A stretch of DNA of 43,113 nt from Bacteroidota bacterium (GTDB lineage Bacteria; Bacteroidota; Bacteroidia; NS11-12g; UBA955): the NCBI GenBank assembly GCA_018333525.1, contig JAGXTF010000029.1, forward strand, positions 1 through 43,113. The letters run 5' to 3'. The notes below the pieces were generated by a model. That model was not told the DNA's origin. It made no database searches and worked only from the letters and a program-made list of their open reading frames with translations. Position numbers and translations under genes: made by a program. Positions 1-21,100 of this stretch are shown here, piece after piece; within the stretch, counting starts at the first letter, position 1; each line of letters opens with the position of its first letter.

Positions 1-966
1 TAGTTTTTGGGTGAGAATTGTAATGTTTTTATCAGATTCCGCAATCAGTTTTTCCGTGTTTAATAATTCCAGATTTTCATTTTTCGCTTTTCGGTAATAT
101 TTGCTCGCATTTTCTGCGGCATTTAAATTTTTATCGAGTTTAATGCGAATCTGGTTTCCGGTATAAAAATCCGTCAGAAAGGCTGAATTGAGACCTGCGC
201 TGATCGTGTGCGCATAGGCCATTATAATATCACCGATCTCTTTATAACTCCTTCTGGTTTTGATATTTTCCGCTTTCAATATATTGTCTTTTTTTAAGCG
301 GATAAAGTGTTTTAATTGTTTCTCTGTTTTTTGAATTTGTTCTGCTTTGGAATCCAAAAACATTACGGAATAAATGAACTTATCCGCAAACAGGTCCAAT
401 GCCTTTAAGCCACAGCCAATGTCTGTTGCAGCAGCATTCTCTTTATAAAAAATAGACGGTAAATTTTCCGAATTGGACATAAATATATGTTGCTGCATGT
501 ATAAAACAGAAGAATTTTCCGATTGGCTTTTTTGGAATTCAAATTTTACATCGGCTTGAAGATTTTGGCGAAAAATCTGACAATTTTCAGCACTATTTTG
601 TGTCTGTAAAATGATATTCCCGAATCTGCCAAAACCCTTGAAAATTAATGTAAAACCGCCTTGGACAGCCATGTAGAATAATCTCTCATTGGCAACGGCA
701 TCCACTTTTTCCACACGCAAACCAATGATATTCTTAAACTGGCGGATGTGCTTGTTGGAATAGCGAATCCATGGCATATAAAAGCGAAAAAATAATTCCC
801 CATGAATAAATCTGCATTGAATTTGAAATACAGAGCCGTTTTGTAATTTAAATTGAATTACCAGTTCGTCTTTATCGGTGCTAAAGCATTCCGATATAAC
901 GGCCTGATCCAACAATGATCTTAGCTCTTCTGCAATAATTCCGTATGTAATTCTGTCTGAATACAA
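1..966 (-). CDS. NFACT-family protein (RqcH/FbpA-like), 3' end beyond window
   Basis: The minus-strand frame is open for 322 codons from a TTG at 966 to the window edge, so the C-terminal part is missing. The translation matches the N-terminal NFACT domain and coiled-coil region: an early segment SECFSTDKDELV, a motif YKEIGDIIMAYAH, and then DFYTGNQIRIKLDKNL followed by NAAENASKYYRKAKN, the family's hallmark block before the helical arm. Known family members bind ribosomes or tRNA in peptidyl-tRNA and stalled-ribosome quality control (RqcH adds alanine tails in Firmicutes); the role in Bacteroidota is less clear. No ATG lies near the expected N-terminus. The frame follows directly after the TAA of the upstream gene (1003-1005), and TTG at 966 gives the length expected from family alignment, so that start is inferred. 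It lies 36 bases after the preceding stop and may be the last gene of the long minus-strand unit. Confidence 0.85.
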   Translation of the reverse strand, partial: MYSDRITYGIIAEELRSLLDQAVISECFSTDKDELVIQFKLQNGSVFQIQCRFIHGELFFRFYMPWIRYSNKHIRQFKNIIGLRVEKVDAVANERLFYMAVQGGFTLIFKGFGRFGNIILQTQNSAENCQIFRQNLQADVKFEFQKSQSENSSVLYMQQHIFMSNSENLPSIFYKENAAATDIGCGLKALDLFADKFIYSVMFLDSKAEQIQKTEKQLKHFIRLKKDNILKAENIKTRRSYKEIGDIIMAYAHTISAGLNSAFLTDFYTGNQIRIKLDKNLNAAENASKYYRKAKNENLELLNTEKLIAESDKNITILTQKL

Positions 967-1002: not shown

Positions 1003-4000
1003 TTATTTTTCCCGGAGCAGAATAACGCTTCCCCTGGTTTGTTTGGTGTAGGTTTTTCTGCCCTTGTAAATCAGCATGTAACTGTAAACACCTTCCGGAC
1101 AAGGTTGTCCAATGTATTCACCATTCCAACCCTGTTTTGGGTCCGCAGACTCATAAACCAATTGACCCCAACGATTGTAAATGTATAACTGGTAAGTGTT
1201 AGCACCATTTGCTATGGCATAAAAAACATCATTCCGATTATTTCCATCCGGGGTAAAAGCATTTGGAACAAAAACCAAAACAGTATCTCTGAAGCAGATT
1301 GCAGTTTCAGTAGAATCCTTACATCCACCGGCGTTGAAAATTACCAGTTTTATTTTATAGGTATTTTGCTCGCCGTTGTACGTATGGCTTGGATTTACAT
1401 TGGGATCAAATGCTTCTGAACTGCCATCGCCCCAGTACCACATTCCGGTAACTGCGCCCTGACTTGCATTGAAAATTTTGAGAACAGGGAAAATATTGGT
1501 TACGCATTTTTCTCCTCCCTGAATGTTGAGAATCATTGCCGCCTGAATGGCTTTGAATCCCGGAATTTCCACGGATGTATCGCTTTGGCAACCTGTTCTT
1601 AAATTGGTTGCTGTAACCTTATAAAAATTACCTGCCGGTGCAGATATGCTGTCACCAAATATTGGTGGAGATACATCCCAGCGAAACTGGTAAGGGTCCG
1701 CATCCTTCATTTTTACTTTTGCAAAACCGTTGAGACCAAAACAAACAGGTATACTGGTTAAAGATGTAAACCATGGCTTTGGATTTCGTAAAATGTTTAC
1801 CACCGCGCTTGCAGGATCGCTGCAACCATCGGTTAGTGTAACGGTAAAGGATTCATTGGGCATTTTAGGGCTGACAAAAGTGCCGCTGCCGGTTTGGTTG
1901 TTGCTCCAAAAATATTGATAGCCATTGATGTCTCCACCGCTGCCAGCAGATCGCAACCAAACTGTTTCTCCGGGACAAATCGTATCCGAAGCAGGAGTGG
2001 CTTTCACTTTTAATGTATCTCCAACTCTCACATCCAAAGTTGCAATTCCATTGCATGTTCCGGATTTGAGGGTATAAGTGAGTTTGTGTTGCCCGGTTCC
2101 GGCTTTGTTGGGATTGAATGAATTTCCGGTTACACCTGCTCCGCTAAATGTACCGCCCGGCTGATTTACGGTAAGGATGAATGCCGAATCTTTAAAACAA
2201 AAGTCCGTAACAGTATTCGTAAAATACAAAATGGGCACCGTATCTACAGTTACATTAAAAGTCGCTTTACAACCATCTTTGGATGTATACGTGATCATCA
2301 CTGTTCCTTTTCCTGCAACAGCAGGACTAAACATGCCGGTAGAAGCATTTGTAATTCCTTTGCCTGCAAATGTTCCACCGGTCTTTTGCGCATAGCATTT
2401 AAATGGGGAAGAGGCAATACATACTGTGGTATCTGACTGAACCACCGGTTTCGGTCTAACATAGGCAAGAACAGTATCCGTGCAGTTGTTTTTGGTATAG
2501 AACAACATATGGATGCCATAACCGGCTGCACCTGGGGTAAACGTCTTGCCAGCGCTAACTCCGTTTCCTGTCCAGATTCCATTTTTGGGGGAGAGTAACA
2601 AAGGCAGTGTATTTAGGTTTACAGGCAGTGCTTCAAAACAATAGAACAGGGTATCCTTTTTACCAATTGAAGTAGGATAGAGGTATACATATTTGTTGCT
2701 TTTACAAACTCCGGAACGAATACTGACTGTATCTTTATAACTGGCCTTTCCGAGTCCAAAGAAAAAAGAAGGATCATAAATTGGTTGGGTTGGGTCAGTA
2801 ATCCCTTTTCCACTCCAAACGCCTCCTGAGGCGGGTCTAAAGCCTGTAAGCGTTCTGGAACCTGCAGATGGGCAAAATGTATCTGTAGGACCGGCATATG
2901 CAGCCAAGATGGTAAGCATGGTGGTGTCTTTACATCCACCGCCGTTCCAAATAATCATTCTGGTCCCGGGTCCGCCCATTGCGGAAGGATTAAACCATCC
3001 CCAATAGGAGTTTGTGAGGCCTACAAAATAATTGGGATAAATGCCATACGGCGAGAATTGAAGTGTATCCGAAGTCACACTTTCGCAGGTTGTATCAAAA
3101 GGCTTGGCATTTATTGCCTGCACCAACATGGTTTTAATACTGATACAACCTTTCCAGGTATAAGTATCTCTATAAGTTCCAGCTACATCCGGGTTAAATA
3201 TTCCATTGGAAGTGATTTTTGGCCCTGACCATTTTCCACCAGCGGGACCATACCACCAAACAGGTGCAGGAGCCGTACCAGGACAAAACTGATTTTCCAA
3301 ATTCCAGGGAACCGTTACATTTACAAACATGGTATCGGCACAAGATCCCACCTGATACCAGACTTTATTGTATCCGTAATTTCCAAAAGGTTTGTATTCT
3401 CCGGTAACACTGCCAATAATGCCTTTCCCATACCATTTTCCTCCAGCCGGTGTTGCTCTTAGAAAGAAATTTCCGGTATAGTAACAAACATCTGTATCTG
3501 CCATTGCCTGCGGGGGATCCAATACCACGATGTCCACTGTATCAGCACTGGGTATAGATATACCGTCAGTAACTCTCAGAATATATCTGGTGTTTACCGT
3601 GGGACAAACCCTGATCGGTCCTGCACCACTGAGGCCTGAAGGTGTCCAGGCATAAACATATTTGGCAGGATTACCACCACTAACAGCCGTTCTTAAATAG
3701 GTACAGGTGCCCTTGCAGATGGTATCGGCGTCTGCCGTTAAAACTACTTTCAGTGGGCAATCCGCGACTGAAAAATTAACACTGGATGTTAGTTTGTATA
3801 CAGAATCACAGTAATCCTTGTAATAGGTAACAATGGTAAAATTATACGTTCCATTTAGGTTTAACTTCCCATTTAAATTCACCTGAAACTTTGTAGCAGT
3901 GCCACCACTGCAATTTAGTGAACTTACCGAAACCGGTGAAATGGCTATAGGACCTGTAATCTTGGCGTTTGCCAGTTTAAAGCTATCACATGGAATCGCC

Positions 4001-4500
4001 TTGTTGGATACCACAGTTATGTAAGTATCATTGCATTTTGCCGATGGATTAATGCTGATGGTAGGAGCTACTGGTGGAATAATGAGCGTGGATACCACAG
4101 CCTCCCATCCGGTACATGCAACACTTTTATCGGAAATAAAGTGCAGGGTAATAAAACTGTCTTTACTGGTAATAGTTCCCGGACCCTTTGATCCGCTCCA
4201 GGTACCCATAAGGGTTGCGAAGGTGTCTTTACCATCAAAAATACGCAGAATATCGTTGTCCTTTTCAGTACAGAAGTTATTGAATTTTAATGTGATAGAC
4301 TTAGCACCCGGAACACTTAGTGTAAGTGTATAGTTTTCGTTATGGTCATAATCTCCTTTGGTTTTACCCAGGTCGCTATCGGTAATCTTTGCTTTACAAA
4401 TCCGCACCCGTCCATTGTGCATGGCAACAGTGGTCTGTGCCTCTGCCTGGGTTGCATAGAATAGAAAAAACAGCAATATGTACCTAAGTATGGTTTTCAC
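1003..4500 (-). CDS. Large secreted T9SS type B (gliding-associated C-terminal) protein with CUB-like and PKD-like domains
   Basis: This 1165-residue protein starts with a signal peptide (residues 1-22, ending TQAEAQ). Residues about 30-140 look like a CUB domain (Cys, aromatic and FDGKD-type pattern). The middle holds at least six repeats of the type GGxWxGxGI followed by a FxP motif and a Gly-Cys-rich tail, common in Bacteroidota surface adhesins. A PKD-like domain (WYWGDGS, about 1000-1065) precedes a gliding-motility-associated C-terminal domain at 1076-1165 with FVPNAFTPDGNNRNDVF and the YNRWGQLVYES core. That domain directs T9SS export and anchoring. The start is GTG at 4500, and its GTGA overlap with the upstream lipoprotein stop implies translational coupling. 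The exact ligand cannot be told; adhesion or structural scaffolding at the cell surface is likely. Confidence 0.9.
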   Translation of the reverse strand: MKTILRYILLFFLFYATQAEAQTTVAMHNGRVRICKAKITDSDLGKTKGDYDHNENYTLTLSVPGAKSITLKFNNFCTEKDNDILRIFDGKDTFATLMGTWSGSKGPGTITSKDSFITLHFISDKSVACTGWEAVVSTLIIPPVAPTISINPSAKCNDTYITVVSNKAIPCDSFKLANAKITGPIAISPVSVSSLNCSGGTATKFQVNLNGKLNLNGTYNFTIVTYYKDYCDSVYKLTSSVNFSVADCPLKVVLTADADTICKGTCTYLRTAVSGGNPAKYVYAWTPSGLSGAGPIRVCPTVNTRYILRVTDGISIPSADTVDIVVLDPPQAMADTDVCYYTGNFFLRATPAGGKWYGKGIIGSVTGEYKPFGNYGYNKVWYQVGSCADTMFVNVTVPWNLENQFCPGTAPAPVWWYGPAGGKWSGPKITSNGIFNPDVAGTYRDTYTWKGCISIKTMLVQAINAKPFDTTCESVTSDTLQFSPYGIYPNYFVGLTNSYWGWFNPSAMGGPGTRMIIWNGGGCKDTTMLTILAAYAGPTDTFCPSAGSRTLTGFRPASGGVWSGKGITDPTQPIYDPSFFFGLGKASYKDTVSIRSGVCKSNKYVYLYPTSIGKKDTLFYCFEALPVNLNTLPLLLSPKNGIWTGNGVSAGKTFTPGAAGYGIHMLFYTKNNCTDTVLAYVRPKPVVQSDTTVCIASSPFKCYAQKTGGTFAGKGITNASTGMFSPAVAGKGTVMITYTSKDGCKATFNVTVDTVPILYFTNTVTDFCFKDSAFILTVNQPGGTFSGAGVTGNSFNPNKAGTGQHKLTYTLKSGTCNGIATLDVRVGDTLKVKATPASDTICPGETVWLRSAGSGGDINGYQYFWSNNQTGSGTFVSPKMPNESFTVTLTDGCSDPASAVVNILRNPKPWFTSLTSIPVCFGLNGFAKVKMKDADPYQFRWDVSPPIFGDSISAPAGNFYKVTATNLRTGCQSDTSVEIPGFKAIQAAMILNIQGGEKCVTNIFPVLKIFNASQGAVTGMWYWGDGSSEAFDPNVNPSHTYNGEQNTYKIKLVIFNAGGCKDSTETAICFRDTVLVFVPNAFTPDGNNRNDVFYAIANGANTYQLYIYNRWGQLVYESADPKQGWNGEYIGQPCPEGVYSYMLIYKGRKTYTKQTRGSVILLREK

Positions 4501-4952
4501 TTGGTAATAGTGATTTCCGGGGTTGTAATTTTATTACTCCAATTGCCGGTTCGGTCGCGGAGGCGTATTTCCATATTGGTGGATTCTGCATTTCCGGTTC
4601 CCAATAAAAACAGGTTGCGAAGCTTAATCACCAATTCCCCTTTAATATGAATTTTACTACCCAGGGGTGCCTGGGGCGGCACATAATAAAAGTCGGGTTT
4701 GGAAAGTCTGGTATCTTTAATCTCCAGACTGTTGATGTCTGCATCTTCAAAGCCGATATCCCCATCGCCATCATCATAGGAAATGGTAATTTTAAGTGAA
4801 TCTGTAAATTGTTGAATGGTGGCCGGTTCCATTTTTACCAGTGCAATGGAAGGATTTGGATTTCCCGTACTGCTCTGGGTTTCCTTGGTGCAGGCACCCG
4901 GAATTACTACCAGGATAAATACCAATACAATATGAAATATGAAATTTTTCAA
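4497..4952 (-). CDS. Small lipoprotein of unknown function
   Basis: This 151-residue protein has an N-terminal hydrophobic segment ending in a lipobox (VIPGAC, Cys21) followed by TKETQ, so it should be lipidated. The rest is a compact beta-rich domain with a SYDDGDGDIGFEDAD stretch, an acidic, possibly calcium-binding loop found in many small Bacteroidota lipoproteins, and a C-terminal LRDRTGNWSN segment. The start is TTG at 4952, overlapping the upstream TGA as TTGA, and its own stop overlaps the next gene's GTG as GTGA. This double 4-base coupling ties it firmly to its neighbours. I do not recognise a named function. Confidence 0.82.
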   Translation of the reverse strand: MKNFIFHIVLVFILVVIPGACTKETQSSTGNPNPSIALVKMEPATIQQFTDSLKITISYDDGDGDIGFEDADINSLEIKDTRLSKPDFYYVPPQAPLGSKIHIKGELVIKLRNLFLLGTGNAESTNMEIRLRDRTGNWSNKITTPEITITK

Positions 4953-5890
4953 AGGATTCTGATAGCGAAATACTTTTTAAGAAAAAACATACTGTTGGTA
5001 TTGGGAAGCTGGTAATTCTGATTGCTTCCGTCTGAGCAGGTAATACGGAACCATATTACATCGTCCTTAACCAATCCGGAAGTGCTAAATGTGTAATACC
5101 AGCCGTAATCTGTGCTGGCGTTGTATAGTCCGGCCATGGTTTTAGTTCCCTGGATTAAGGGTTTTTCATTTCCCGGATCAAAATTTCCGGGATCGGTACT
5201 CCAATTGATGGTCATTCCGGTTAAGGAGCCTTGTGCAGTATGATCATCGCTCAAGCTGAACCAAAGGTCTATGTTGGCTCCCGGGTATGTATAAAACGGT
5301 TCATATTTACCGCCTCTGGGCAAGAAATTGCTGCCAGCCAAGGCTTGTACTCCTAAAATGGTGGGAGGGAAATCTGCCGGAACCGGTGCTTTCCCCTCAA
5401 AATCTTTAGCTCCATCGTTAATCCACTTTCGAATATTTGCAATATGCTGGTCCTTTTTTGTGGGGTAAGTACTTCCAGGGTCCAAAACCAAAGGCATGAT
5501 TCCACTATTGCCGCCCAAATCCACAGTCATGCGGTATATCAATATACTGCCATCTGCGCTGCCCGGAACTACTCTTGCACTAAACGTTCCAGCCAAATCG
5601 TTTTTGATTGGCTTTTGATTGACCAAGGAATTATAAGTGGATTGAACGGTTCTGAAATCCGGTTCAAAAGTGCCGTCATGACAACCACTATTGCTGCAAG
5701 TGGGTTTAAATAAATCGCGGTGCAATCCCTGAATGCTGGCGGGATCTGCGGTACTATCGGCATTTGGATCCACCGGTGGTGGTTTAATATTGGTATACGG
5801 ATTATCGACTTTACTGCCATCGCTCTTTTTGCAAGCCAATACCGAAATGGTGAGTAAAACGAATAATATGGATATGTAGCTAACCCTCAT
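4949..5890 (-). CDS. Lipoprotein with cytochrome c-like domain (CxxxxCH)
   Basis: This 313-residue protein has a lipobox (SVLAC, Cys20) and then a Pro/Asp-rich linker. Residues about 55-165 resemble the cytochrome c-like domain of DUF1549/DUF1553-associated proteins: CSNSGCH (Cys65, Cys70, His71), then VVPGSADGSILIYRM, GIMP (Met132, a plausible distal haem ligand) and an IRKWINDGA helix. The haem motif has four residues between cysteines rather than the usual two; such CxxxxCH sites do occur in some multihaem cytochromes. The C-terminal part (about 170-313) looks like a beta-sandwich of unknown type. It abuts the DUF1501-like gene with no gap and overlaps the next lipoprotein by 4 bases. Haem binding is inferred, not shown. 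Confidence 0.82.
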   Translation of the reverse strand: MRVSYISILFVLLTISVLACKKSDGSKVDNPYTNIKPPPVDPNADSTADPASIQGLHRDLFKPTCSNSGCHDGTFEPDFRTVQSTYNSLVNQKPIKNDLAGTFSARVVPGSADGSILIYRMTVDLGGNSGIMPLVLDPGSTYPTKKDQHIANIRKWINDGAKDFEGKAPVPADFPPTILGVQALAGSNFLPRGGKYEPFYTYPGANIDLWFSLSDDHTAQGSLTGMTINWSTDPGNFDPGNEKPLIQGTKTMAGLYNASTDYGWYYTFSTSGLVKDDVIWFRITCSDGSNQNYQLPNTNSMFFLKKYFAIRIL

Positions 5891-7234
5891 TTACATCCTG
5901 TTATAAAGACTCTGCGCAAGCGGATCGATATATCCGCTATTCATTACATCGTTATAAATTCCAAAAATATCCGCGATAGTGGGCACAATATCTGTGAGTC
6001 TGCCTATGCGATTGGTCTCACTTCCAACACTCAGTGTCGGAACTCCTTTGCCTTTCATTACCGTCCAAACGCGTAAAGCGTTGGCATCGCTATGGTCAAA
6101 TGCATACCAATCATTTTGATCTAAAATCGGATTGCTATCCAGGTTTCTGCCACATTCCGGTGCTACTATCATAATAGTTTTTCCGGCCATTTCCGGAATA
6201 TTGTTTTCTATATAATTCCAAAGCCAGCCTGTGGCGTGGTCCGCCCTGTGCATGCTTCGCAGATAGCCGGTAAAGTTGCTGTGGCAACCATCCACACTGG
6301 CCATATTAACAGTTAAAAATTTTGGCTTGAAATAACGCAGCACTTCCGCAGCATAAGAGATATTTACAGCGTCACCACCATCGGTTACCGGTGGTTTTAC
6401 AATTTGGCCTGCGAGCTGCCGTTGAAAAATCTGCCTTACAAATTCCTTGATTTGTGTGCGTTCCTGATCCGTATTTTTTATGGTGGTGAGTTGATCTGCA
6501 CTTAGCCCAAAACTCTGATCCAGGAAATTCTTCATAAAATACATAGGCTCCAGATCTGCCTGGCTGTATGGTTTTGCATTTCCGAGTATTTCCCGGCCAT
6601 AGCTGCCAAATGTTACCGGTGCCGCAAACATATTTCCCCCGTACTGCAGTCCGTAATCTTTGTTGTTACTGCTGTTCAGCAACGGATAGGAGTTTCCAAT
6701 AGTATTGCATACAAACCAGCAATCTGTGGCTTTAAAATTTGCGTGTTTTCTGAGGTATTCGAATATTGTGGGGTATCGGGGACGTACTTTTAATCCCTGT
6801 GCAGTTCCGGAACTACCGGTAATCAGCGTGTTTAAACCTACATAATGTCCGGCACTTTGCGCAAGTACTTCTTTAAATACCGTTCCGGATTCTTCCATAG
6901 ACTGGGACAAAATGCGCGGAATAGGCTCAGAACCTGCGGTTTGATTTCCCCCGGGGTCTGTTCCAAAAACGATTTTCTTGGTTGGGATGCTGCCTTTGAA
7001 CAGGTTAGGCATAATATTCCCTGCCGCACCTGTAACACCCTGACTGTCTTCCAGGTAGCGACCTAATATGGATTCCTGTTGGCGTACACCACCGGCAAAC
7101 ATTACCAAAACCACATATTCCGCTTTTGGAGTGTTGGTTTGCGCAAACAATCTGCCTGAAGGCAGAATATAAGGTAATGCAACGCCACCTGCTGCTGTAA
7201 TTCCCGCCTTTTTGAAAAACTCTCTTCTGTTCAT
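5891..7234 (-). CDS. DUF1501-like (sulfatase/alkaline-phosphatase fold) protein with Tat-type leader
   Basis: This 447-residue protein begins with a twin-arginine-like leader (MNRREFFKKAG, then a hydrophobic stretch ending SGRLFAQ). The body has features of DUF1501 proteins, which share the alkaline-phosphatase superfamily fold: an early VVLVMFAGGVRQQ segment, NMASVDGCHSNF, MHRADHATG, MIVAPECGRNLDSN, and a DHSDANALRVW block close to the C-terminus with GRLTDIVPTIADIFG. In Planctomycetes and Bacteroidota, DUF1501 genes sit next to DUF1549/DUF1553 or DUF1800 genes, and no enzymatic activity is established. Here the partners are cytochrome-like and DUF1549/DUF4214-like lipoproteins. It is 3 bases from the upstream gene's stop and abuts the downstream start, so co-translation is likely. 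Active-site residues differ enough that catalysis is uncertain. Confidence 0.8.
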   Translation of the reverse strand: MNRREFFKKAGITAAGGVALPYILPSGRLFAQTNTPKAEYVVLVMFAGGVRQQESILGRYLEDSQGVTGAAGNIMPNLFKGSIPTKKIVFGTDPGGNQTAGSEPIPRILSQSMEESGTVFKEVLAQSAGHYVGLNTLITGSSGTAQGLKVRPRYPTIFEYLRKHANFKATDCWFVCNTIGNSYPLLNSSNNKDYGLQYGGNMFAAPVTFGSYGREILGNAKPYSQADLEPMYFMKNFLDQSFGLSADQLTTIKNTDQERTQIKEFVRQIFQRQLAGQIVKPPVTDGGDAVNISYAAEVLRYFKPKFLTVNMASVDGCHSNFTGYLRSMHRADHATGWLWNYIENNIPEMAGKTIMIVAPECGRNLDSNPILDQNDWYAFDHSDANALRVWTVMKGKGVPTLSVGSETNRIGRLTDIVPTIADIFGIYNDVMNSGYIDPLAQSLYNRM

Positions 7235-7237
7235 GGT

Positions 7238-7738
7238 TTAATAGAAATTGTATTCATCACTGGCGGCAAATGCTGTGTAAACCATTTCTACGGTGACATT
7301 CGCATTTCGGCTGATGTAATTGTTAAAAAATGCCTTTTCACCCTCACTGGGGTAGCGCAGGTAAAAACGCTTGTATGTGTTTACAACAAAACTGTCAATA
7401 TTGCCTCGCATATCTGCATCTGCCGGAATTTTCAAACCGGAAGTATTGAAATAATTGCTTAGCACCAGCTCACTGGCAACATTGTGGTCGCCAATGCTGA
7501 ATATTACGTTTTGCGTTTTGTACAGCTGGTTGGGTGAAATTGGAGTTTGGTAAAGGTTGGTATATAAGATAGAAATGTATTCCGCATCCGTCTTTCTTTT
7601 GGTCTTTTTAGCCTTGTCTTCGTAAATGACTTCCGGTACCACGCCAAAAGTAACTTTCTTTTCCTTTGTACAGGAAAAAATACCCCCTGAGATGGCCACT
7701 ATACAAAGTACACTAACGTAGGAATTGCGCATATTCAT
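7238..7738 (-). CDS. Lipoprotein, DUF4214/DUF1549-like helical domain
   Basis: This 166-residue protein has a signal segment ending in a lipobox (GGIFSC, Cys23). The mature part is helical and includes the segment YKRFYLRYPSEGEKAFFN with a later TAFAASDEYNFY ending, resembling the helical repeat (LYxxxLxRxPxxxE ... SxEY) of DUF4214 and the C-terminal part of DUF1549/DUF1553 proteins. Its start lies 26 bases inside the end of the upstream lipoprotein gene, in a different frame. Its own lipobox argues that it is a separate gene, not a frameshifted tail. It sits 3 bases from the DUF1501-like gene. The function is unknown; a surface complex with the neighbours is inferred. Confidence 0.78.
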   Translation of the reverse strand: MNMRNSYVSVLCIVAISGGIFSCTKEKKVTFGVVPEVIYEDKAKKTKRKTDAEYISILYTNLYQTPISPNQLYKTQNVIFSIGDHNVASELVLSNYFNTSGLKIPADADMRGNIDSFVVNTYKRFYLRYPSEGEKAFFNNYISRNANVTVEMVYTAFAASDEYNFY

Positions 7739-8630
7739 CGGTTTTTAATATGGCAAGCTGAACCGCTGCCAGGTTTTTGGTTTTAGAATAGTTATTGAAC
7801 AGATTTATCACCTCCTGGGTGCTGGCTTCTCTTTGTAACAGCAAGTAATATTCCCACCGGATCTGTGCTTCATAAAATTCCGATGTGGTAGTCATTGCAA
7901 TTAAGAATTCCCTTTTGTTAGAAGCAGTAAGGCCGAAAATATCCCGCGGCAGGTTTTTGTCTATCACATCATAGGAGCGATTAAATTCTTCCTGGGTTGG
8001 CTTTCTGGTAAACAGGTCATCAAAGGCTGCATTAACAAAATTGAAACTCCCCATATTGATCTGATCATAAATAGCATTGTCAATCATGGGAACAGCCATA
8101 TCTGCATAGGTAATTTGTCCGAGCCTGTATCTGCGTTTGCTATGGATAATATCCTCATATCGTTTCTTTTCTGCCAAATAAGAATAAACCGCCACGCTGT
8201 CTCCGTCCAGTCTGGCAACCACAATGGCAAAATTCAGATTGCCAATAAACTGCCCAACTTCTCCATCCGTTGCGCCTTCTAAAAAACGCGCTTTGGAGAG
8301 GTCATAAATACGCTGGCAATAAGCATGGTGGTAAGAAGAATCACCATCATGGTAAGTGGTATCCAGTTGTAATTCCAGAATGATTTTTTCCCTGGCTGCC
8401 ATAGACAAGCCCTCCGCTTTCAGATAGTCTGTGCGGCTGTTTCTTTCATCGTTGGTGGCTTCCCTGCCTAAAAGATCAATAAAAAGACGGTTTACGTAAT
8501 TCTCTACCTTAATGGTTGGCACCGAATGATAGTCCGGCGGTGTGTTGCCATCTACAGTGAGCGATTCCGATTTCTTACAACCGAAAACCAAGAGAGGAAT
8601 AGCCAGTAAAAAAGTAATTTTTCTGATCAA
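7713..8630 (-). CDS. Lipoprotein, DUF1549/DUF4214-like, first gene of the surface operon
   Basis: This 305-residue lipoprotein (lipobox LVFGC, Cys18) contains YVNRLFIDLLGREATNDE near residue 45, which resembles the start of DUF1549/DUF4214 helical domains, and a second block DLFTRKPTQEEFNRSYDVID near residue 205. A final ATSEFYEAQ-like and KTDEYAQFLR ending repeats the 'S/T-E-Y' signature, suggesting two or three related helical repeats. The start codon is TTG at 8630, supported by a strong Shine-Dalgarno AAGGAGG five bases upstream. It is the first gene of the unit running down to 1003. It probably belongs to the same assembly as the DUF1501-like and cytochrome-like proteins, but its function is not known. 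Confidence 0.8.
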   Translation of the reverse strand: MIRKITFLLAIPLLVFGCKKSESLTVDGNTPPDYHSVPTIKVENYVNRLFIDLLGREATNDERNSRTDYLKAEGLSMAAREKIILELQLDTTYHDGDSSYHHAYCQRIYDLSKARFLEGATDGEVGQFIGNLNFAIVVARLDGDSVAVYSYLAEKKRYEDIIHSKRRYRLGQITYADMAVPMIDNAIYDQINMGSFNFVNAAFDDLFTRKPTQEEFNRSYDVIDKNLPRDIFGLTASNKREFLIAMTTTSEFYEAQIRWEYYLLLQREASTQEVINLFNNYSKTKNLAAVQLAILKTDEYAQFLR

Positions 8631-8635
8631 TAGCG

Positions 8636-8642
8636 CCTCCTT
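8636..8642 (-). promoter_or_regulatory. Strong Shine-Dalgarno that fixes a TTG start
   Basis: The minus strand reads AAGGAGG, five bases before the TTG at 8630. Strong Shine-Dalgarno sites are uncommon in Bacteroidota, so this one both supports the TTG start and suggests high translation of the first operon gene. Confidence 0.7.
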
Positions 8643-8704
8643 ATAAAGCGAAGTTACTAATTCTTAGTCATATATCACGAAAAATGGTTGCATTGCGCAT
8701 GTTT

Positions 8705-8732
8705 TTGGTGCTTAAGAAAAAGCTTAAATTTG
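8705..8732 (+). promoter_or_regulatory. Bacteroidota-type promoter for hmgA
   Basis: TTG at 8705-8707 is followed after 17 bases by TAAATTTG at 8725-8732, a full match to the -7 consensus TAnnTTTG. Transcription would start near 8737, giving a leader of roughly 57 bases before the ATG at 8794. Confidence 0.55.
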
Positions 8733-8793
8733 CATATCAGGAAACGAAAACCGAATTGTTTCGGCAAAAACACAACCAATAAAAATACATTCA

Positions 8794-9951
8794 ATGGCAT
8801 TTTACTATAAACAAGGTTCCGTACCACACAAAAGACATACCCAATATCGCAAGCCAAATGGCGATTTATATGCCGAAGAACTGGTGAGCACAGAGGGATT
8901 TAATTCTCTATACAGCCTGATTTACCATTGTCATCCTCCAACTCTGGTTAAGGATATTGCAGAGCCTTATAGTGTGGAACCACGCGTTGCGATGGCTAAA
9001 AACATGCAGAATCGGAGCTATATTACTTTTAATACACCAGCTCAGGATGATTATGCCGAAAGTAGAAAAGTGCTGCTTTTGAATAATGATCTAACCATTG
9101 GAGTTGCAGCTCCCCGCAAAAGCACCACGGATTATTTCTTTAAAAATGCAGATGCCGACGAGGTATTGTTTATACATGAAGGTAAGGGAAAACTGAAAAG
9201 CATCTATGGTAATATCCCCTTTGAGTATGGAGATTATCTGGTAATTCCGCGTGGTACGATTTACCAACTGGAGTTTGAAAATGAAAATAATAGAATACTA
9301 TTTGTAGAATCCTTTTCTCCTATTTATCCGCCAAAAAGATATCAAAACAGTATGGGACAATTGATGGAACATTCGCCTTATTGCGAAAGAGATATCAAAT
9401 TACCTGTTTTGGAAAATACATTCGATGAAATTGGTGACTACAAAGTATTGGTTAAAAAACAGAATATGATTTATCCATATACCTATGCCACACATCCATT
9501 TGATGCAATTGGCTGGGACGGATTTTTGTATCCTTTTGGTTTTAGCATTCACGAATATGAACCCATAACCGGCCGTGTTCACATGCCACCACCCATACAT
9601 CAGACATTTGAAGGCCGCGGATTTGTAATATGCAGTTTTGTTCCGAGGTTATATGATTATCACCCACAAGCCATACCTGCGCCTTATAACCACAGCAATG
9701 TAGACAGCGATGAAATTTTGTACTACGTTGACGGCGATTTTATGAGCAGAAAACACGTTGAACGCGGGATGATAACTTTGCATCCAAAAGGGATTCCACA
9801 TGGGCCACATCCGGGTACGGTTGAAAAAAGCATAGGAGCTAAAGAAACCAAAGAACTCGCTGTGATGATTGATCCGTTCCATCCATTGATGATCACCGAA
9901 GATGCAGTAAACGTGGAAGACAAAGGTTACTGGAAGTCCTGGGTAGAATAA
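8794..9951 (+). CDS. hmgA: Homogentisate 1,2-dioxygenase
   Basis: This 385-residue protein matches homogentisate 1,2-dioxygenase, the Fe(II) enzyme that opens the ring of homogentisate to maleylacetoacetate in tyrosine and phenylalanine breakdown. The C-terminal cupin holds the iron site: NHSNVDSDE (His300 and an acidic residue at 306/307) and the HPKGIPHGPHPG block (His336 equivalent to the PHGP histidine of the human enzyme). The N-terminal cupin shows VLFIHEGKG and GDYLVIPRGT. Length fits the bacterial form, and no signal peptide is present, so it acts in the cytoplasm. The usual partners (maleylacetoacetate isomerase, fumarylacetoacetase, HPPD) are not in this window, so the gene stands alone with its own promoter. 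Confidence 0.95.
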   Translation: MAFYYKQGSVPHKRHTQYRKPNGDLYAEELVSTEGFNSLYSLIYHCHPPTLVKDIAEPYSVEPRVAMAKNMQNRSYITFNTPAQDDYAESRKVLLLNNDLTIGVAAPRKSTTDYFFKNADADEVLFIHEGKGKLKSIYGNIPFEYGDYLVIPRGTIYQLEFENENNRILFVESFSPIYPPKRYQNSMGQLMEHSPYCERDIKLPVLENTFDEIGDYKVLVKKQNMIYPYTYATHPFDAIGWDGFLYPFGFSIHEYEPITGRVHMPPPIHQTFEGRGFVICSFVPRLYDYHPQAIPAPYNHSNVDSDEILYYVDGDFMSRKHVERGMITLHPKGIPHGPHPGTVEKSIGAKETKELAVMIDPFHPLMITEDAVNVEDKGYWKSWVE

Positions 9952-10988: not shown

Positions 10989-12320
10989 TTAAATTCCAAC
11001 TTGTAACTGAACGGTTACCATACCTTTTCTGCTGGTTACGCGGGCTTCTTCATCGGAATTTTTATGATAGACCGGTCTGTTTTGGTACATCAAGGATATT
11101 TTATTCCATGCATTTCCGGAGATATAATAATTCATTCCGGTTTGATACATGATCATCCTCTCATGCAGTGCCTGAAATCCGGCAATTTGAGTCCCCGCAA
11201 AAAGCTGAATTCTATCGTGGTTTTTTAATAAGTTTTTACCTGCCAAATAACCTACTTCTGCATATAAAATATTTCCGGTACCTATAGCCGGAAACCCATT
11301 TCCCGTGCCATTCAGGCTTGCATTTGCATTTACTCCGTTTAACGGATTCATTACACCGAGCATTCGCAAATGATTTTGTCCGAAATCAAATATGGAAAAT
11401 GCGGCATATGCAGTGATGGCATTTTCTTTTTCTTTATTCAGGGGTGCATCATAAAACACATCTACACTCCAAAGATTCATAGGGTGGTATATAGTATCGG
11501 AGTTCTTTCCGTTCTGCTGCCACATGGCTTTAGGTTGGTGTATAAAACCGGCTCCAATATTGAAAATTCTTCTCTTACCCAAATAAGTTCCGGCAAAATA
11601 TGGCAATTGGTTGCTCTCTTTATCCAGAAATTCCCATTTAAAATAACCCTGTGTTTGTAGCGAAGGATATCGGGCAGAAAAACTTGCAATTCCGGAATCC
11701 AAAGATGTGCTGTTAGCAACATTTCCCGTTTGCGCAGCCATAGGATGGGAGAGGGCAACACGATAATCCAGACGTGAGATTTTACCTTTTGCATACACGC
11801 TAAGTTTTCTAAGAAACTGATCGGTTACACCATTGGTAGCTTGTTGGTATAAAGGTGCATCCAGGGAAAGAATGGAACCAACAGCCGGAGATGCATATCT
11901 GGATAAGCCGCTCCAGCCTGTCAATCCTGCACCAATATTCATCCAATCTTTTCGGATCCGGAATTCTGCAACTGCATCGTGAAAAAAAGCACCTGTAAAT
12001 CTGTTTTGCATCCAAGTAAAATTGTTCAATCCGAACTGGGTATAAAGGAAGATTCTTTCATTTATCTGACCATACGCTTGCATGCGCAACCTACGAATGC
12101 CAATATCAAAAGAGTTGTTGACAGGATCGCCAAAAGCAGTAGAGCCGGGATTGTTTTGGGTATGTCGCAACCAAACCTGATTTACGCAGGTAAACTTGAA
12201 AAAATGAGTGCTGTCTTTATTGAAATTCCATTTTAACTCATTGGGTTTTTGTGCAAGTACATTTTCCATAAAAAAAAATGTAAAAACGATCAAAGTAAGG
12301 TTACGAAAAAAAGACGACAT
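10989..12320 (-). CDS. Phosphate-selective porin O/P-like outer membrane protein
   Basis: The start at 12320 gives MSSFFRNLTLIVFTFFF and a signal peptide ending NVLAQ; an upstream in-frame extension to 12440 would bury that signal and is rejected. The mature protein, about 420 residues, has the beta-barrel porin pattern of the OprO/OprP family: an early NSFDIGIRRLRMQAYGQI strand, YTQFGLNNFTW, an AVAEFRIRKDWMNIGAGLTGWSG block, and a final aromatic strand GMVTVQLQVGI. Such porins form outer-membrane channels for anions or small solutes, and the real substrate cannot be predicted. A convergent gene ends at 10817. A near-palindrome lies in its 5' region (12353-12368). Confidence 0.8.
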   Translation of the reverse strand: MSSFFRNLTLIVFTFFFMENVLAQKPNELKWNFNKDSTHFFKFTCVNQVWLRHTQNNPGSTAFGDPVNNSFDIGIRRLRMQAYGQINERIFLYTQFGLNNFTWMQNRFTGAFFHDAVAEFRIRKDWMNIGAGLTGWSGLSRYASPAVGSILSLDAPLYQQATNGVTDQFLRKLSVYAKGKISRLDYRVALSHPMAAQTGNVANSTSLDSGIASFSARYPSLQTQGYFKWEFLDKESNQLPYFAGTYLGKRRIFNIGAGFIHQPKAMWQQNGKNSDTIYHPMNLWSVDVFYDAPLNKEKENAITAYAAFSIFDFGQNHLRMLGVMNPLNGVNANASLNGTGNGFPAIGTGNILYAEVGYLAGKNLLKNHDRIQLFAGTQIAGFQALHERMIMYQTGMNYYISGNAWNKISLMYQNRPVYHKNSDEEARVTSRKGMVTVQLQVGI

Positions 12321-12352
12321 GAAGTTCGCAACTTTCGGTTTTAGCTCCTCGT

Positions 12353-12368
12353 TTGTCAATATTGGCAA
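12353..12368. promoter_or_regulatory. Near-perfect palindrome upstream of the porin
   Basis: TTGTCAATATTGGCAA pairs with itself at 14 of 16 positions and lies 33-48 bases upstream of the porin start. It could be a regulator binding site. No further copy was noticed in the window. Confidence 0.35.
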
Positions 12369-12538
12369 TTGTTTCATAACCACCATGCAATATTCTGTAT
12401 TTGAAATAATCAGGCAAACTTTTATAGAAGAAAATTTCATAAAATATGCCCGCTATTTTAATTTTTTGGTTAAAAGAATGAAATATAATTCGCTAAACAA
12501 TTCATTACTACAAGATTGGAACTCGAATTTTTTAGGTT

Positions 12539-13363: not shown

Positions 13364-16300
13364 ATGACAAAAAGGATATTCACTTTCGCCATTAGTTTAA
13401 TCTTACTGGCTTCTTTCGCACAGGCACAAAGCCCCAACCCAAAAAAATATGCCAAAACAGTTAGGCATATTGAGAAAAAACTCACCAAAAAAGCACTGAA
13501 ATCAGTGTCAAAAAGTGATGTAGATGAAAACAAAACCCCTGATCTTTATTGGATTCAGGAGTATATCGCAACCATGGATCCCGCGAAAAGAAGGCCTACC
13601 CCGGAAGTTCTGTTTGAGGTTATGGAAAAACTGAATCGGCAAGACTATACCCAATATGGGGCAATGCCGGGAACGAGTGTTACTCCATGGCAGGAACGCG
13701 GTCCAAATAATGTAGGTGGCAGAACCAGAGCATTGGCCTGGGATCCAACAGATGCAACAGGGAAAAAAGTGTGGGCCGGTGGTGTTACCGGAGGTTTATG
13801 GTATAATACCGATATAACAAGCAGTAGCAGTTCCTGGCAGCATGTCAGCAGTCTTTGGAGCAACCTTACCGTCTCATCCATTGCATTTGATCCTAACGCA
13901 CCCGGAACAATCTATGTTGGCACAGGTGAAGGTTATGGATCCAGCAGTTCCACAAGCCGGGGATTTGGCATTTGGAAAAGTACGGATTCAGGTAAAAGCT
14001 TTACCCAATTGAACAGCACCACAACTTATTACTATGTAAATGATATTGTTGTGCGAAATGAAAGCGGATCTTCCGTGGTTTATGCCGCGGTAGATGCCAA
14101 TTATTTTGGCGGTCAGTGGAATGGAACGTCCAGTTATGGACTATTTAGAAGCACCAATGGCGGAAGCACCTGGACCAATGTAATTGGAAATGCTGCCAAT
14201 GGTGCCAAATTCGCTATTGCAGACCTGGAACTTGCCTCTGATAATACGTTGTGGGCAGGAACCAGAAACAATGCCTTCTCCGGCAGTGACAAAGGTGGTG
14301 GAAGGGTTTTAAACTCCACAAACGGAACAACCTGGAATACGAAATACACACTTACCGGCCGATTGGGTCGTGTGGAACTCGCTTGCGCTCCTCAAAGTGC
14401 CGGTCTCGTTATTGCAATATTTGAATATAGCGGAAAGGCCGATACCATATTGGCAACTCACGATAAAGGCGCTAACTGGGCTAAAATAAATAAGCCTGTT
14501 GATGCAGATCAGGGCATATCCAAATGGGATTTTACCAGAAATCAGGGCTGGTATGATTTGATAATTGCCGTGGATCCAACGGATACCAATAAAATAGTGA
14601 TTGGTGGTATAGACCTTTTTCGCAGTACCAATGGAGGTAGCAGTTGGAGCCAGATTGGAAAATGGTCTAACAACAACAACTTGGCAGGTCTGAATTGCAG
14701 TTATGTACACGCCGATCAGCACCAGATAGCCTTTAAACCGGGAAGTTCCAATACCTGTATTTTCGGGAATGACGGTGGTGTCTTTTATACCAGCAATTTG
14801 TCTTCTGCAGCGAGTTCTAACGTGATTTTTGAAAGGACCAAAAACTATATTACAGCGCAGTTTTACTGGGGCGACCTCGCCGCAACTTCAGGATCCAATG
14901 TGTTAATAGCAGGTGCTCAGGATAATGGAACCACATTGATAACCAATGCAGGTGTTGCTACAGGAATCACTGTTGCAGGTGGTGATGGCGGATACTGTTT
15001 TATTTCTCCATCTTCGGTAAACAAACAAATTGCATCTTACGTGTACAATACATTCTATTACACCACCAATAGCTGGACCAACAGCAATAACCTGATATCT
15101 GATGGTACAACCGGGAAATTCATCAATCCTGCAGAATGGGATGACAATGGACCGGGATTATTTACCGGAAAGAGTACAGGTAATTTATACAGAATCAAAC
15201 TGACTACAACACCGGGAACATTGGAAACCATTTCATGGACCGCAAGTGGAGCGCCTTCATGCATCAATGCTGCAAAACTTTCCAATGGTAAATCCAGGTT
15301 ATTGTGTGGTACAGATGCCGGAAAAGTTTACATGACCAATGATGCCTGGGCAACCAGTCCAACTTTTAGTGATATAACCGGAACCATAAATGCAGGAAAC
15401 ATATCTGATATATTTAATCTCAGAGCCGGAGATACCATGGCAGTAGTGTTGTCTAATTATGGAGTGAGTAACATTTACGTGAGCTTGAATGGTGGATCCA
15501 GTTGGACTGCAAAAGACGGTAATCTTCCCAATCAACCTGTTTGGAGTGTTGTTTTAAATCCGGATAAATTGGGCGAAGCAGTAATTGCCACAGAAACAGG
15601 AGTTTATGGCACGAGCAATATTTTTGCCGGAAGTCCTACATGGAGTGCATATACAACAGGTATGGGAGCAGTGAAAATCGCTACACTGCGCTATCGTGCA
15701 AGCGATAAAATGTTGCTGGCCGCAACACATGGCCGCGGATTATTTACCAGCGATGCCTGGGCCAAAAACAATCCCATAGCCAGATTCGGTTCTTCATCTC
15801 AGGATGTTTGTACAAACACAGCAGTGCAGTTTACAGATAGCACTTTAAATGACCCAACCCAATGGCTTTGGGCATTTGCTCCAAATAATGTCGAATACTT
15901 AAATGGTACAGACAGCAGCAGTCAAAATCCGAAAGTCAGGTTCAAAACCGGTGGTAGTTATACGGTTACTTTAATTGCGGCAAATCAGTTATCTAACAGT
16001 ACTTTAACCAAAACCAATTTTATGTCGGTAACCGATACCATTGCCGGTATTATTACTCTCGGTGCAGATAAAGACACCTTGTGCAGCGGGGATTCGCTTC
16101 ATCTGCAAATTTCAAATGCTGGTGTATTAAATGGAACATTTACATCCATTAATTGGGACAGGAATGGAATATTAATTTCAGGCAATTCTGTTACAAATGC
16201 AGTAAAACCAAATGCCGGAGATATTTATGGTGTAACCGTGGTGAGTAACGCAAAATGTGTATCTCCCTCTACCATTATCAGCAATAAAATCACACCCATT

Positions 16301-17059
16301 GTGTTGAATAATATTAACGCGTCTGCAAAGTTGAATATTCCACAAGCATGCAGTGGCAAAGTATTGATGCTTACTGTTTCCGGCACCAATACGGGAAGCA
16401 ATCCGGTTTGGAATTGGTATGTAAACGATACCTTACAAACAGGTAATTTATCTCAATTTCAAATACAAACTCCTTTGCAGGGAACTAAGATATATACAAC
16501 AGTTTTTGTACCGGGAAAATGTATTCTGCCTTCAAATCAAATTTATTCAGATACCCAAATTCTTGCAGTAAATCCAACACCTGCTGCGCCAATGGTAAGC
16601 AGAAATTTTGATACCCTTTTCGCCTCTGCATCCGGCTCTGGTACCTATATCTGGTACAGATCAGGTGTGGCGGTTTCTTCAAACAAAATCTATAAAGCCA
16701 CACAGAATGGAAATTACGTTTGTGTGTATACAGAAAATGGTTGTAGTAGTGACAGTAGTAGTTTGATAGTGTTTAACAGTTTGTTTGCAAATGATCCGGG
16801 AATAGCAAATGAGGGAATTTGGCCTGTACCGGCTTCAGATAGAATATGGCTGCAAACGAAGCAGGCAGCAAGCGTCATAGAAATGTATGATATGCGTGGT
16901 GTTCAAATTGAAAACGGATGGAATATATTGCAAAAAAATATGGCTAATTCTAATGGTTTTGTTTCAGAAATTCGCGTTGAAAATTTGGCATCCGGACAAT
17001 ATTTCATTAAAATAAAATCCAATTCTGGGAGCAAAGAGTTTCGCTTCAATAAACTATAG
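13364..17059 (+). CDS. Secreted BNR/sortilin-type beta-propeller protein with PKD and T9SS type A domain
   Basis: This 1231-residue protein has a signal peptide (residues 1-21, ending FAQAQ). After a charged helical prodomain, residues about 115-800 carry BNR/sialidase-type repeats with Asp-box-like motifs (STDSGKSF, STNGGSTW, STNGGSSW, SLNGGSSW), the mark of a VPS10/sortilin or glycosyl-hydrolase-like beta-propeller. A PKD-like domain (about 805-890) and Ig-like modules with paired cysteines follow. The C-terminal 80 residues (WPVPASDRIWL ... LASGQYFIKI) form a T9SS type A sorting domain, so the protein is exported and attached to the surface or released. No catalytic residues are evident, so a binding role is as likely as glycosidase activity. 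The next gene starts with no gap. Confidence 0.88.
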   Translation: MTKRIFTFAISLILLASFAQAQSPNPKKYAKTVRHIEKKLTKKALKSVSKSDVDENKTPDLYWIQEYIATMDPAKRRPTPEVLFEVMEKLNRQDYTQYGAMPGTSVTPWQERGPNNVGGRTRALAWDPTDATGKKVWAGGVTGGLWYNTDITSSSSSWQHVSSLWSNLTVSSIAFDPNAPGTIYVGTGEGYGSSSSTSRGFGIWKSTDSGKSFTQLNSTTTYYYVNDIVVRNESGSSVVYAAVDANYFGGQWNGTSSYGLFRSTNGGSTWTNVIGNAANGAKFAIADLELASDNTLWAGTRNNAFSGSDKGGGRVLNSTNGTTWNTKYTLTGRLGRVELACAPQSAGLVIAIFEYSGKADTILATHDKGANWAKINKPVDADQGISKWDFTRNQGWYDLIIAVDPTDTNKIVIGGIDLFRSTNGGSSWSQIGKWSNNNNLAGLNCSYVHADQHQIAFKPGSSNTCIFGNDGGVFYTSNLSSAASSNVIFERTKNYITAQFYWGDLAATSGSNVLIAGAQDNGTTLITNAGVATGITVAGGDGGYCFISPSSVNKQIASYVYNTFYYTTNSWTNSNNLISDGTTGKFINPAEWDDNGPGLFTGKSTGNLYRIKLTTTPGTLETISWTASGAPSCINAAKLSNGKSRLLCGTDAGKVYMTNDAWATSPTFSDITGTINAGNISDIFNLRAGDTMAVVLSNYGVSNIYVSLNGGSSWTAKDGNLPNQPVWSVVLNPDKLGEAVIATETGVYGTSNIFAGSPTWSAYTTGMGAVKIATLRYRASDKMLLAATHGRGLFTSDAWAKNNPIARFGSSSQDVCTNTAVQFTDSTLNDPTQWLWAFAPNNVEYLNGTDSSSQNPKVRFKTGGSYTVTLIAANQLSNSTLTKTNFMSVTDTIAGIITLGADKDTLCSGDSLHLQISNAGVLNGTFTSINWDRNGILISGNSVTNAVKPNAGDIYGVTVVSNAKCVSPSTIISNKITPIVLNNINASAKLNIPQACSGKVLMLTVSGTNTGSNPVWNWYVNDTLQTGNLSQFQIQTPLQGTKIYTTVFVPGKCILPSNQIYSDTQILAVNPTPAAPMVSRNFDTLFASASGSGTYIWYRSGVAVSSNKIYKATQNGNYVCVYTENGCSSDSSSLIVFNSLFANDPGIANEGIWPVPASDRIWLQTKQAASVIEMYDMRGVQIENGWNILQKNMANSNGFVSEIRVENLASGQYFIKIKSNSGSKEFRFNKL

Positions 17060-18112: not shown

Positions 18113-21100
18113 ATGAAATTCTGTTTTGCATTTCTACTTGCCATTTTCTTTACAGATGGATTGTTTGCCCAAAACAACACGCTGAATTTTGAAGAAAAAA
18201 CTTATAAAATCTATCCGTATCGCATGGATGGGGTTAAATACTATTCTCTATATGAGGCTACAAATGCAGATATCCCATACTATCCCATGGAGTTGGAAGA
18301 TGGGAAATACGCGGTAATGTTTACCAAAAAGACAGATTTGTTAAGCCCTAAAAACAAGAAACAACTGGAGTGGTTTGAATCCTGGCCTGCGGCGATTTGC
18401 AATATTAAAAACGGGAAAAAGGAAGGTCCGGTTGTTTTCTATTCCAAATATTATAAAAAAGAAAAACACATTGTTTCAGGCAAAGGATACTACAGCGCAG
18501 GTAAAAAAGATGGAAGATGGGTGTTTTATACTATCAGCAGTTTTAAAGGTAACTATCTCGACAGTACCATCATTCATTTTAAAGGCGGTTTGCCGGAAGG
18601 AGAAGCTGTGCAGGGAATGCAGGGAAATATATATGAAGCTCATGGATATTATAAAAACGGAGTAAAATCGGGGCTTTGGAATATCCCTAAAAAAGCAGCG
18701 ATTTACTATGAGAATGGGTTAATACACGGAGCCAAGACAGACAGCAGTTTTCGCTCCGTAACTGTTACCCATTATTTCAAGGGCAATCCATTTGGGAATG
18801 TGGAATTTTATGATTTAAATGGAAGAAAAACCGCCGAAATTAAGGTGCTCGATACCAATGCTGCTTCTATTCCGGGATTGGAAGACAGTGCAAAATTCTA
18901 TGTTCGGTATTCTGAATTAAATGACAATACAGAAATGAGCAGTACAAATTTCACACCCGCCTATTTGCGTGCGCTGATTAACAATGCCTGTATTTTTAAA
19001 TCCAACTACAATTCAGATAATTGGTGGCAGGTTGCTTCTGATATTGGCCCGGACTGGCGGAAATATCTCTCACATAGCAAATATATAATTACCATGTATA
19101 AAACGGATGGAAGTGTGCTGTACGAATATCCCTGTATAGGTGCATTTATACGTGTGAAACCAGGAAATTATTTATTCGAGTACAAGAAGGGGTATTATGT
19201 TTATGAAGATTTAAATTATCCCTATTTGCCTGAAATAAAAGAGAAAAAGAAAATAAAATATGTTCCAAATCCCATCGAATATTCTGTAACCTTTGACAGC
19301 TCCGGGGCGGATCGCAGCTATTGGAAAATAAAATCGACCAGTTGGGACAGGAGTTATGAGAGAAGCCTTTTAATTCGCAATTACCGCTGGCAATATTTGG
19401 ATTATCATGGTCTGGACAGGGAGTATAATACAGAACGCTGGACCTGGTCTGGTCGCTATGTAGGGCAAAACATCTTGCTCGAAGATTCTACCGTATATCG
19501 TGCAATAGATGCAAAATATATCTGTTCTAAAGAATATAATTTAATATCCAAAAACGGTTGGACAAAAGTGGAGGTAAATTCAGGTAATCATCCGGATTTG
19601 GTGGCCAACCGGATTTTGAAGATTACCGGAAACCCCCAATTGTACAGCGTAGACAGTGGATGGGTTTTTCAAAGTTATTCCTCTATTACGAACAAGAAAC
19701 ACAGGGTTGAATTTATCACCACAGATACCATTCGACCAAATAAGAATTTCCATTTTTCTTTAAGTAATTTCAATAGAATTTATCCGCAGTTTCAATACCC
19801 GGGATCAACCATGCCATTGATATATCTGGATGGGGAATTATATACCGGTGAGGTTAAAATATTATCGGAATTTAATAAGGATAAAGATAAGGATAGAATT
19901 CAATTAAAATATATCATTCGCGATTTCTGGGGTTTTAAGGATACCAGCAAAGTATTGTCGTTAAAACGGGAGATTTACGGAGTGGACTATATCCGTTACA
20001 CTGCCAATAAAGGCCTTGTTTCAGGGATGTTTCAGAGTACCGAAAATGAGATGGTGAAATCCCAGTACTATACCCAAGGAATAGCAAATGGCGTTTACCG
20101 CCATCAAAATGGTCAGGAGATATTATTGTCTAACCAATATAAGAATGGTGTGCCCAATGGTCCCCAATGGATGTACTCCGGACAGCCGTCAAACGAGTAT
20201 GATCATAAGAATACCGTTATTTCAAAAAACACGAACTACCAACCCAGTCAACATTTCTTTGTAGACAGGGGAACATTGAATGGTCCTGCGATGCAAAGCA
20301 GCAACTCTAATATTGTAACTTATTTGAATTTTAAAAATGACAGTTTAAACGGCTTGTATTTAAAATATCAAAACGATTTGTTACTGGATTCTTTGAGTTT
20401 CGTTTCCAATCTTCCAAATGGGACATATCACAGTTACTATGGAAATGAAGAATTGAATTCCAAATTAAAACCCAGAGTTTTTGCCACATTTGATCATGGA
20501 AGAATTTCCGACTCCGTAATTGCATTTTTCAAGGATGATGGCATCAGTTCCATTGCCAGGTTAAACAGGAAAATACCCATATTTTCAGTTTCAGAAAATT
20601 GGTATGGAAATACTATTTTGAGGAAGGTTTCAACATCCGATTACTATGGAGAAAAAGATACTTTTATTCCAGAACTTATGTATCGGAATTATGGCAAAAA
20701 ACAATTGAATTACACGGTATCCGGTTCCAGCTTTTTGACCATTATTCCCGGGTTGAATTTCGATTTGGAGTCAACAAGAATTCTGGAATTCGAATACGAC
20801 TGGGATGCGAATTATACTTATTACTATAAGGGTGGAATTAAAAGTATGGAAGGGGAGATCCGCAACCAACAAAGGACAGGGTGGTGGCATTTTTATACCG
20901 AAAGCGGAAAAAAATACAAATCTATTTTGTACAATTTTAAAGATAGTATGCAGTCAATTCCTGAAAATGCCAAAAATGGAAAAGGATATTGTAAAGGTTT
21001 TGATGATTTTGGCCGGCTATCCTATGAGGGTTTTATAATGGATACCAAATTCACGGCAACCTGTGCCACAAATGCTACCCTGACCTTTGAGGATTTGTAT

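Follow-up and report, generated by a model that had tools for sequence, protein, structure and literature searches.

Gene clusters that combine DUF1501 and PSCyt proteins are common in environmental bacteria, and we know of no function that has been assigned to them since their discovery in Rhodopirellula. In the bacterial class studied here, canonical representatives (loci L195, L197, L198, L199 and L201) run in the order PSCyt1-PSCyt2-PSD1, DUF1501, PSCyt1. DUF1501 proteins also occur in DUF1800–DUF1501 pairs, in which a Tat-type DUF1501-like protein follows a helical protein. The passages on PSCyt clusters in a study of Verrucomicrobia (PMC5615132) call their function unknown and suggest carbohydrate metabolism, a carbohydrate link being proposed there for PSCyt genes with carbohydrate-binding modules, and the part of PMC5122149 that concerns DUF1800/DUF1501 links these genes to chitin synthase loci. 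No description of the six-gene module reported below was found in those portions of the DUF1501 literature that were covered.

This module lies in a window of 43,113 nucleotides, i.e., the whole stretch of DNA that was analyzed, and its genes are named A to F in the order of transcription (Table 1). The succession A/B, C, D parallels that of the canonical clusters of the same class. As in the PSCyt clusters of Planctomycetes and Verrucomicrobia, the products are exported and a DUF1501-related protein stands between an upstream protein with helical units and a downstream PSCyt1-type heme protein. Unlike those clusters, however, the module has neither the PSCyt2/PSD1 core nor the second heme, its scaffold consists of two small lipoproteins, its heme domain stands alone on a lipoprotein with a CxxxxCH motif, it adds gene E and the T9SS cargo gene F, and its gene C product lies below the reach of Pfam. 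The placing of a Tat-type DUF1501-like protein after a helical protein is shared with the DUF1800–DUF1501 pairs, whereas these pairs contain no cytochrome and no lipoproteins. The best reading of this comparison is that the module is a distant, split and rearranged counterpart of the PSCyt1-PSCyt2-PSD1/DUF1501/PSCyt1 clusters. By the likeness of its parts it should work like the PSCyt/DUF1501 kind, although strict family cut-offs do not make it a member.

Table 1. Features of the six-gene locus and of related short genes (L056–L058, coordinates within each locus)
Feature	Coordinates	Strand	Description
Gene A	7713-8630	minus	TTG start, 305 aa, lipoprotein; three DUF4214/PBS-linker-like helical units
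Gene B	7238-7738	minus	166 aa, lipoprotein; DUF4214-like unit at C-terminus
Gene C	5891-7234	minus	447 aa, Tat-type, DUF1501-related; predicted alkaline-phosphatase superfamily fold
Gene D	4949-5890	minus	313 aa, lipoprotein; predicted PSCyt1-like c-type heme domain and Ig-like domain
Gene E	4497-4952	minus	TTG start, 151 aa, lipoprotein; Y-x-DGDGDxG and DR-GN-SN motifs conserved
Gene F	1003-4500	minus	GTG start, 1165 aa, T9SS type B cargo
Intergenic region, divergent	8631-8793		between gene A and plus-strand neighbor
Short C-like protein, L056	8384-9427		between HgmA-like and NFACT genes
Short C-like protein, L057	8574-9662		between HgmA-like and NFACT genes
Short C-like protein, L058	5203-6300		between HgmA-like and NFACT genes

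Gene organization and conservation

The starts, overlaps and gaps of the six minus-strand genes agree with the original prediction to the base in the ORF coordinates: A and B overlap by 26 bp, B and C are separated by 3 bp, C and D by 0 bp, and D/E and E/F overlap by 4 bp each (TTGA and GTGA, respectively). A strong SD-like AAGGAGG was found upstream of the TTG start of gene A, in the intergenic region. The plus-strand neighbor is served by a promoter at 8705 that matches the Bacteroidota type (TTG-N-TAnnTTTG) exactly; for the operon or inside it, no exact promoter of this type was detected and near matches were not above chance, and generic sigma-70 and terminator scans gave matches at chance level only. 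The plus-strand neighbor (8794-9951) encodes a homogentisate 1,2-dioxygenase-like (HgmA-like) protein, which is kept across the own family, also in genomes without the module. On the other side, a truncated NFACT_N (Rqc2/RqcH-like) gene (1-966, minus strand) lies 36 bp downstream of F.

The order A-B-C-D-E(-F) was found again in about 80 loci from 22 family-level groups, all of one class, with median gaps of −20, 9, −1, −4 and 1 bp from A/B to E/F. The original prediction had named a search for this gene order in relatives as a check and lack of conservation as the outcome that would speak against it; the set is conserved, so this objection fails. In the own genome and its near relatives, gene C homologues occur in 41 of 57 genomes, and, a few cases apart, all contigs of sufficient length keep the order and strand of A to F. 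A wider search of 395 genomes of the class found 116 with a C homologue, weak matches included; the phylum-level sample comprised two genomes only, and the distribution counts hold for the class. Of 41 strong D matches in 119 class genomes, 39 follow C immediately and on the same strand; of the other two, the one in G172 has C and D on different contigs. Gene C was missed by ORF calling in L100 and L104, where open frames are nonetheless present. The HgmA-like and NFACT (Rqc2-like) genes flank the module in the own family, and other genes do so in other families; since the flanks vary between families, the A–F block itself is the conserved unit. With this recurrent order and tight coupling in about 80 loci, the six-gene set is more than a chance assembly, and the data support its description as one conserved, transcription-unit-like module.

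In a maximum-likelihood tree, the C sequences fall into groups of 62 and 19 rows (split support 100/100). In the 62-row clade, F closes every locus on a sufficiently long contig except for three or four from which it appears to be absent, whereas in the 19-row clade F is absent and the other five genes, A to E, are all kept. Several genomes carry both versions, so that the split between the F-containing and the F-less version is an old duplication. In three own-family relatives without the module, one shorter C-like protein (347–365 aa) occupies the same place (Table 1), and these solo proteins retain the D..H, (E/D)xGR and DH motifs.

The gene C product

The description of C as a DUF1501-like, Tat-type protein stands with respect to its kinship, its motifs and its N-terminus, but not as a family match. 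Neither Pfam nor NCBIfam gave a DUF1501 match for the window protein, and among its homologues 2 of 39 match DUF1501 (PF07394) in Pfam, the best at E 0.0032, which leaves C outside the family by the curated cut-off. A profile–profile comparison (hhalign) with 16 DUF1501 proteins of the same class, in contrast, gave E 1.1e-6 in the C-terminal part, and a side-by-side alignment places the DUF1501 motifs GG, D-x(1-2)-H, E-x-GR and DH in C in the same order; where DUF1501 proteins paired with DUF1800 have GGxD, C has GGxR. The N-terminus is Tat-like, with RR in 59 of 81 homologues and RR, RK or KR followed by x and F/M/L in 79 of 81. The gene C product is thus, as judged from profiles and motifs, a very distant DUF1501 relative.

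The AlphaFold model of C (pLDDT 86.6) matches structures of the alkaline-phosphatase superfamily throughout, the best being PafA (5too; Z 26.7, rmsd 3.7, 297 residues aligned), so that a confident model assigns C the predicted fold of this superfamily. Pfam matches to Phosphodiest (10 of 39) and Sulfatase (8 of 39) were obtained for its homologues, and a profile search found no sequence relative of C in the PDB. Eight residues are invariant in 39 sequences from both paralogous versions (H130, D315, H318, E360, R363, D380, H381 and D383). C resembles PafA, the sulfatases and the NPP phosphodiesterases in its predicted fold (Z 23–27) and in the D..H and DH motifs. However, its identity to them is 11–19%, and, although D315/H318 and D380/H381 are invariant, a full two-metal site cannot be assigned from the sequence, and two features of true alkaline phosphatases, the third His and the Asp/nucleophile at the first metal, could not be recognized in it. 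C may consequently lack catalytic activity or work by a different chemistry.

The predicted heme protein D and the lipoproteins A, B and E

The claim of four lipoproteins was borne out by homologue alignments of A (n = 55), B (n = 50), D (n = 57) and E (n = 60), in each of which the lipobox Cys is invariant (Cys18 in A and Cys23 in B). For D, the claim of a separate, cytochrome-like CxxxxCH lipoprotein likewise holds. Its first half (about 50–165) aligns with the PSCyt1 region (hhalign probability 96, E 2.4e-9), and the heme motif, the Met ligand and the C-terminal WI..GA pattern of PSCyt1 (PF07635) are in register. The heme motif is C65xxxxC70H71 and the predicted Met ligand is M132; C65, C70, H71, M132, P133, W156, I157 and G160 are invariant in 57 members. 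All 81 D homologues carry CxxxxCH and none of them CxxCH, and none of the 57 members has a Pfam match to PSCyt1 (PF07635), so D departs from the canonical CxxCH pattern as well as from the family model. The CxxxxCH spacing also occurs in tetraheme cytochrome c3, by analogy with which heme attachment to D is plausible. The second half of D (172–313) is a predicted Ig-like domain according to the model and its fold matches; the fold search returned partners for this domain only, so that its outcome bears on the Ig-like part of D, and a viral library yielded nothing informative. Multiheme extracellular electron transfer was considered and rejected, as there is one heme motif in D and none in A, B or E. 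Elsewhere in the same genome (L209, contig C118, 6524-7583), two adjacent genes encode small heme-motif proteins of 233 and 126 aa, one of them with both CxxCH and CxxxxCH; a 314-aa gene comes after them, and a similar set is present in L210.

The helical units of A lie at about 44–75, 160–250 and 255–305. Among 55 A homologues, Pfam recognizes DUF4214 in 41, PBS_linker in 17, PSCyt2 in 11 and PSD1 in 6, and the A profile matches the solved phycobilisome linker Glr2806 at E 1.7e-8. DUF4214 is recognized in 34 of 50 B homologues. The DUF4214/PBS linker unit is thus seen in homologues of both, whereas the window's own A and B are below cut-off (for B, DUF4214 at 18.7 bits against a GA of 23.2); the Pfam and NCBIfam matches of the window's B and D are all below threshold. 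A and B align with each other (hhalign E 2.3e-6), mostly in the N-terminal part.

The original prediction had taken A and B for a split DUF1549/DUF1553 partner, an assignment that was rejected. The matches to the PSCyt2 and PSD1 models are partial (positions 19–69 of 209 and 218–243 of 244, respectively) and B does not match either model past its signal peptide; because the matches are confined to the positions of the short helical unit, the DUF1549/DUF1553 core is absent from A and B. CxxCH is found in none of 78 A and 81 B homologues, and both proteins are closer to DUF4214 and the phycobilisome linkers. A weak match of A to DUF1800 (E 0.0017) was likewise not accepted as kinship. For E, neither a Pfam family nor, by profile search, a sequence relative in the PDB was found; its Y-x-DGDGDxG motif suggests a beta domain with Ca.

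Gene F, type IX secretion and localization

The original assignment of F as a T9SS type B protein of 1165 residues was confirmed by its sorting domain, which is above cut-off in both CHU_C (57.5 bits, GA 27) and Bac_Flav_CTERM (48.2 bits, cut-off 35). F consists of an N-terminal CUB domain (above cut-off), Cys-rich middle repeats, a PKD-like part and the CHU_C sorting domain, and its length is kept in 53 homologues (1085–1194 aa, median 1165). PorP/SprF is the partner type of T9SS type B cargo, as in SprB/SprF. F resembles this system in ending in CHU_C and in being followed by a PorP/SprF gene in five distant relatives (L098, L102, L104, L113 and L128), the assignment resting on Pfam in four of them and on sequence likeness in L113. 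However, no PorP/SprF gene lies beside F in the window, where the next gene is NFACT, and five additional genes make up the conserved unit. Near the F-less paralogue, T9SS type B-like proteins of about 705–710 aa are encoded in L115, L119 and L132 (CHU_C by Pfam in L132), while most F-less loci have no adjacent T9SS cargo. Because the five-gene core also occurs without F, display is not essential.

The name "surface operon" fits F, by virtue of its sorting domain, but is not borne out for the lipoproteins. Among residues +2 to +8 after the lipobox Cys, acidic and basic residues are about equal in A, D and E, and B is more basic; there is no excess of acidic residues that would mark an obvious surface-export signal, although such signals vary between genera. 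A periplasm-facing position of the lipoproteins is therefore equally open.

Other loci also touch on T9SS cargo. In L202 (1720-7127), a CHU_C protein with lamin-tail domains directly precedes a DUF1800–DUF1501-like pair, which is a second link of type B T9SS cargo to DUF1501. In the own genome (L207, contig C90), a DUF1800–DUF1501 pair occupies 3482-5140 and 5152-6723, and its DUF1501 protein carries a Por_Secre_tail T9SS domain. Further T9SS cargo in the window is encoded at 13364-17059 (PKD), 24586-27189 (Reeler and PKD) and 27403-29478 (IgGFc_binding and CHU_C).

Proposed function and alternative explanations

The explanation that we favor, with moderate confidence, is an envelope-bound metallohydrolase/heme module in which the lipoproteins hold C in a complex, D is its heme partner, C is an ester hydrolase or transferase, and F is a displayed binder; most of the doubt falls on the last step. 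The four lipoproteins would hold C in a single complex at the outer membrane, with A and B as a helical scaffold and E as a small beta subunit, perhaps Ca-binding. The heme of D would pass or sense electrons beside the active site of C, which would most likely hydrolyze or transfer an ester group of phospho-, sulfo- or comparable type, and F would be displayed outside, where it may bind a target. The target of C would be an envelope or extracellular polymer. This explanation draws on the conserved gene order and spacing, on the folds and motifs of the parts, and on the carbohydrate links proposed for PSCyt and DUF1800/DUF1501 genes. Points that weigh against it are that the operon contains no glycan gene, that the active-site set recognized in C is incomplete, that the A–E core also occurs without F, and that the lipoproteins show no clear signal for surface export.

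Several of the observations above can be read differently. A to E may form an assembly or display pathway for T9SS cargo that modifies, folds or anchors F or another CHU_C protein, C then acting on F or on an anchoring lipid or sugar and not on an outside polymer. Such a pathway would agree with the position of F as last gene in 53 loci, with its conserved length, with the PorP/SprF genes that follow it in five relatives and with the type B-like proteins near three F-less loci. However, the well-separated F-less clade retains the other five genes, mostly without adjacent cargo, and we consider this explanation unlikely. C could also be a pseudo-enzyme whose phosphatase fold serves as a binding or structural subunit, making the module a redox sensor or an adhesion complex. 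That neither a nucleophile nor a complete two-metal set can be recognized in C, and that GGxR stands in place of GGxD, points in this direction; D315, H318, E360, R363, D380 and H381, however, are invariant in both clades, which is typical of a retained metal site, and the shorter solo proteins keep D..H, (E/D)xGR and DH. We consider this explanation unlikely as well. Finally, the six could be unrelated envelope genes that travel together without a joint function, but about 80 loci with differing flanks, from both paralogous lineages, share the order, and D adjoins C in 39 of 41 cases, which makes this highly improbable.

The module matters in several respects. Its parts are split into separate small genes, which opens them one by one to expression, deletion and assay; its invariant residues and its predicted alkaline-phosphatase superfamily fold can be put to the test; and it ties the DUF1501/PSCyt kind to a surface-displayed protein. 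A farther-reaching and speculative possibility, to which we attach little weight, is that of a class-wide, undescribed envelope system: a phosphatase-fold hydrolase and a CxxxxCH cytochrome with a single heme, on lipoprotein scaffolds that resemble phycobilisome linkers and in one of two ancient versions coupled to a displayed T9SS adhesin, would carry out redox-linked surface-polymer chemistry by a new mechanism.

Other features of the window

Two large ORFs in the window, at 18113-21598 (1161 aa) and 10989-12440 (483 aa), have no Pfam family at E 1e-4. Near-identical stretches of 30 bases at 41891-41920 and 42332-42361 lie within an ORF of 877 aa, suggesting an internal repeat.
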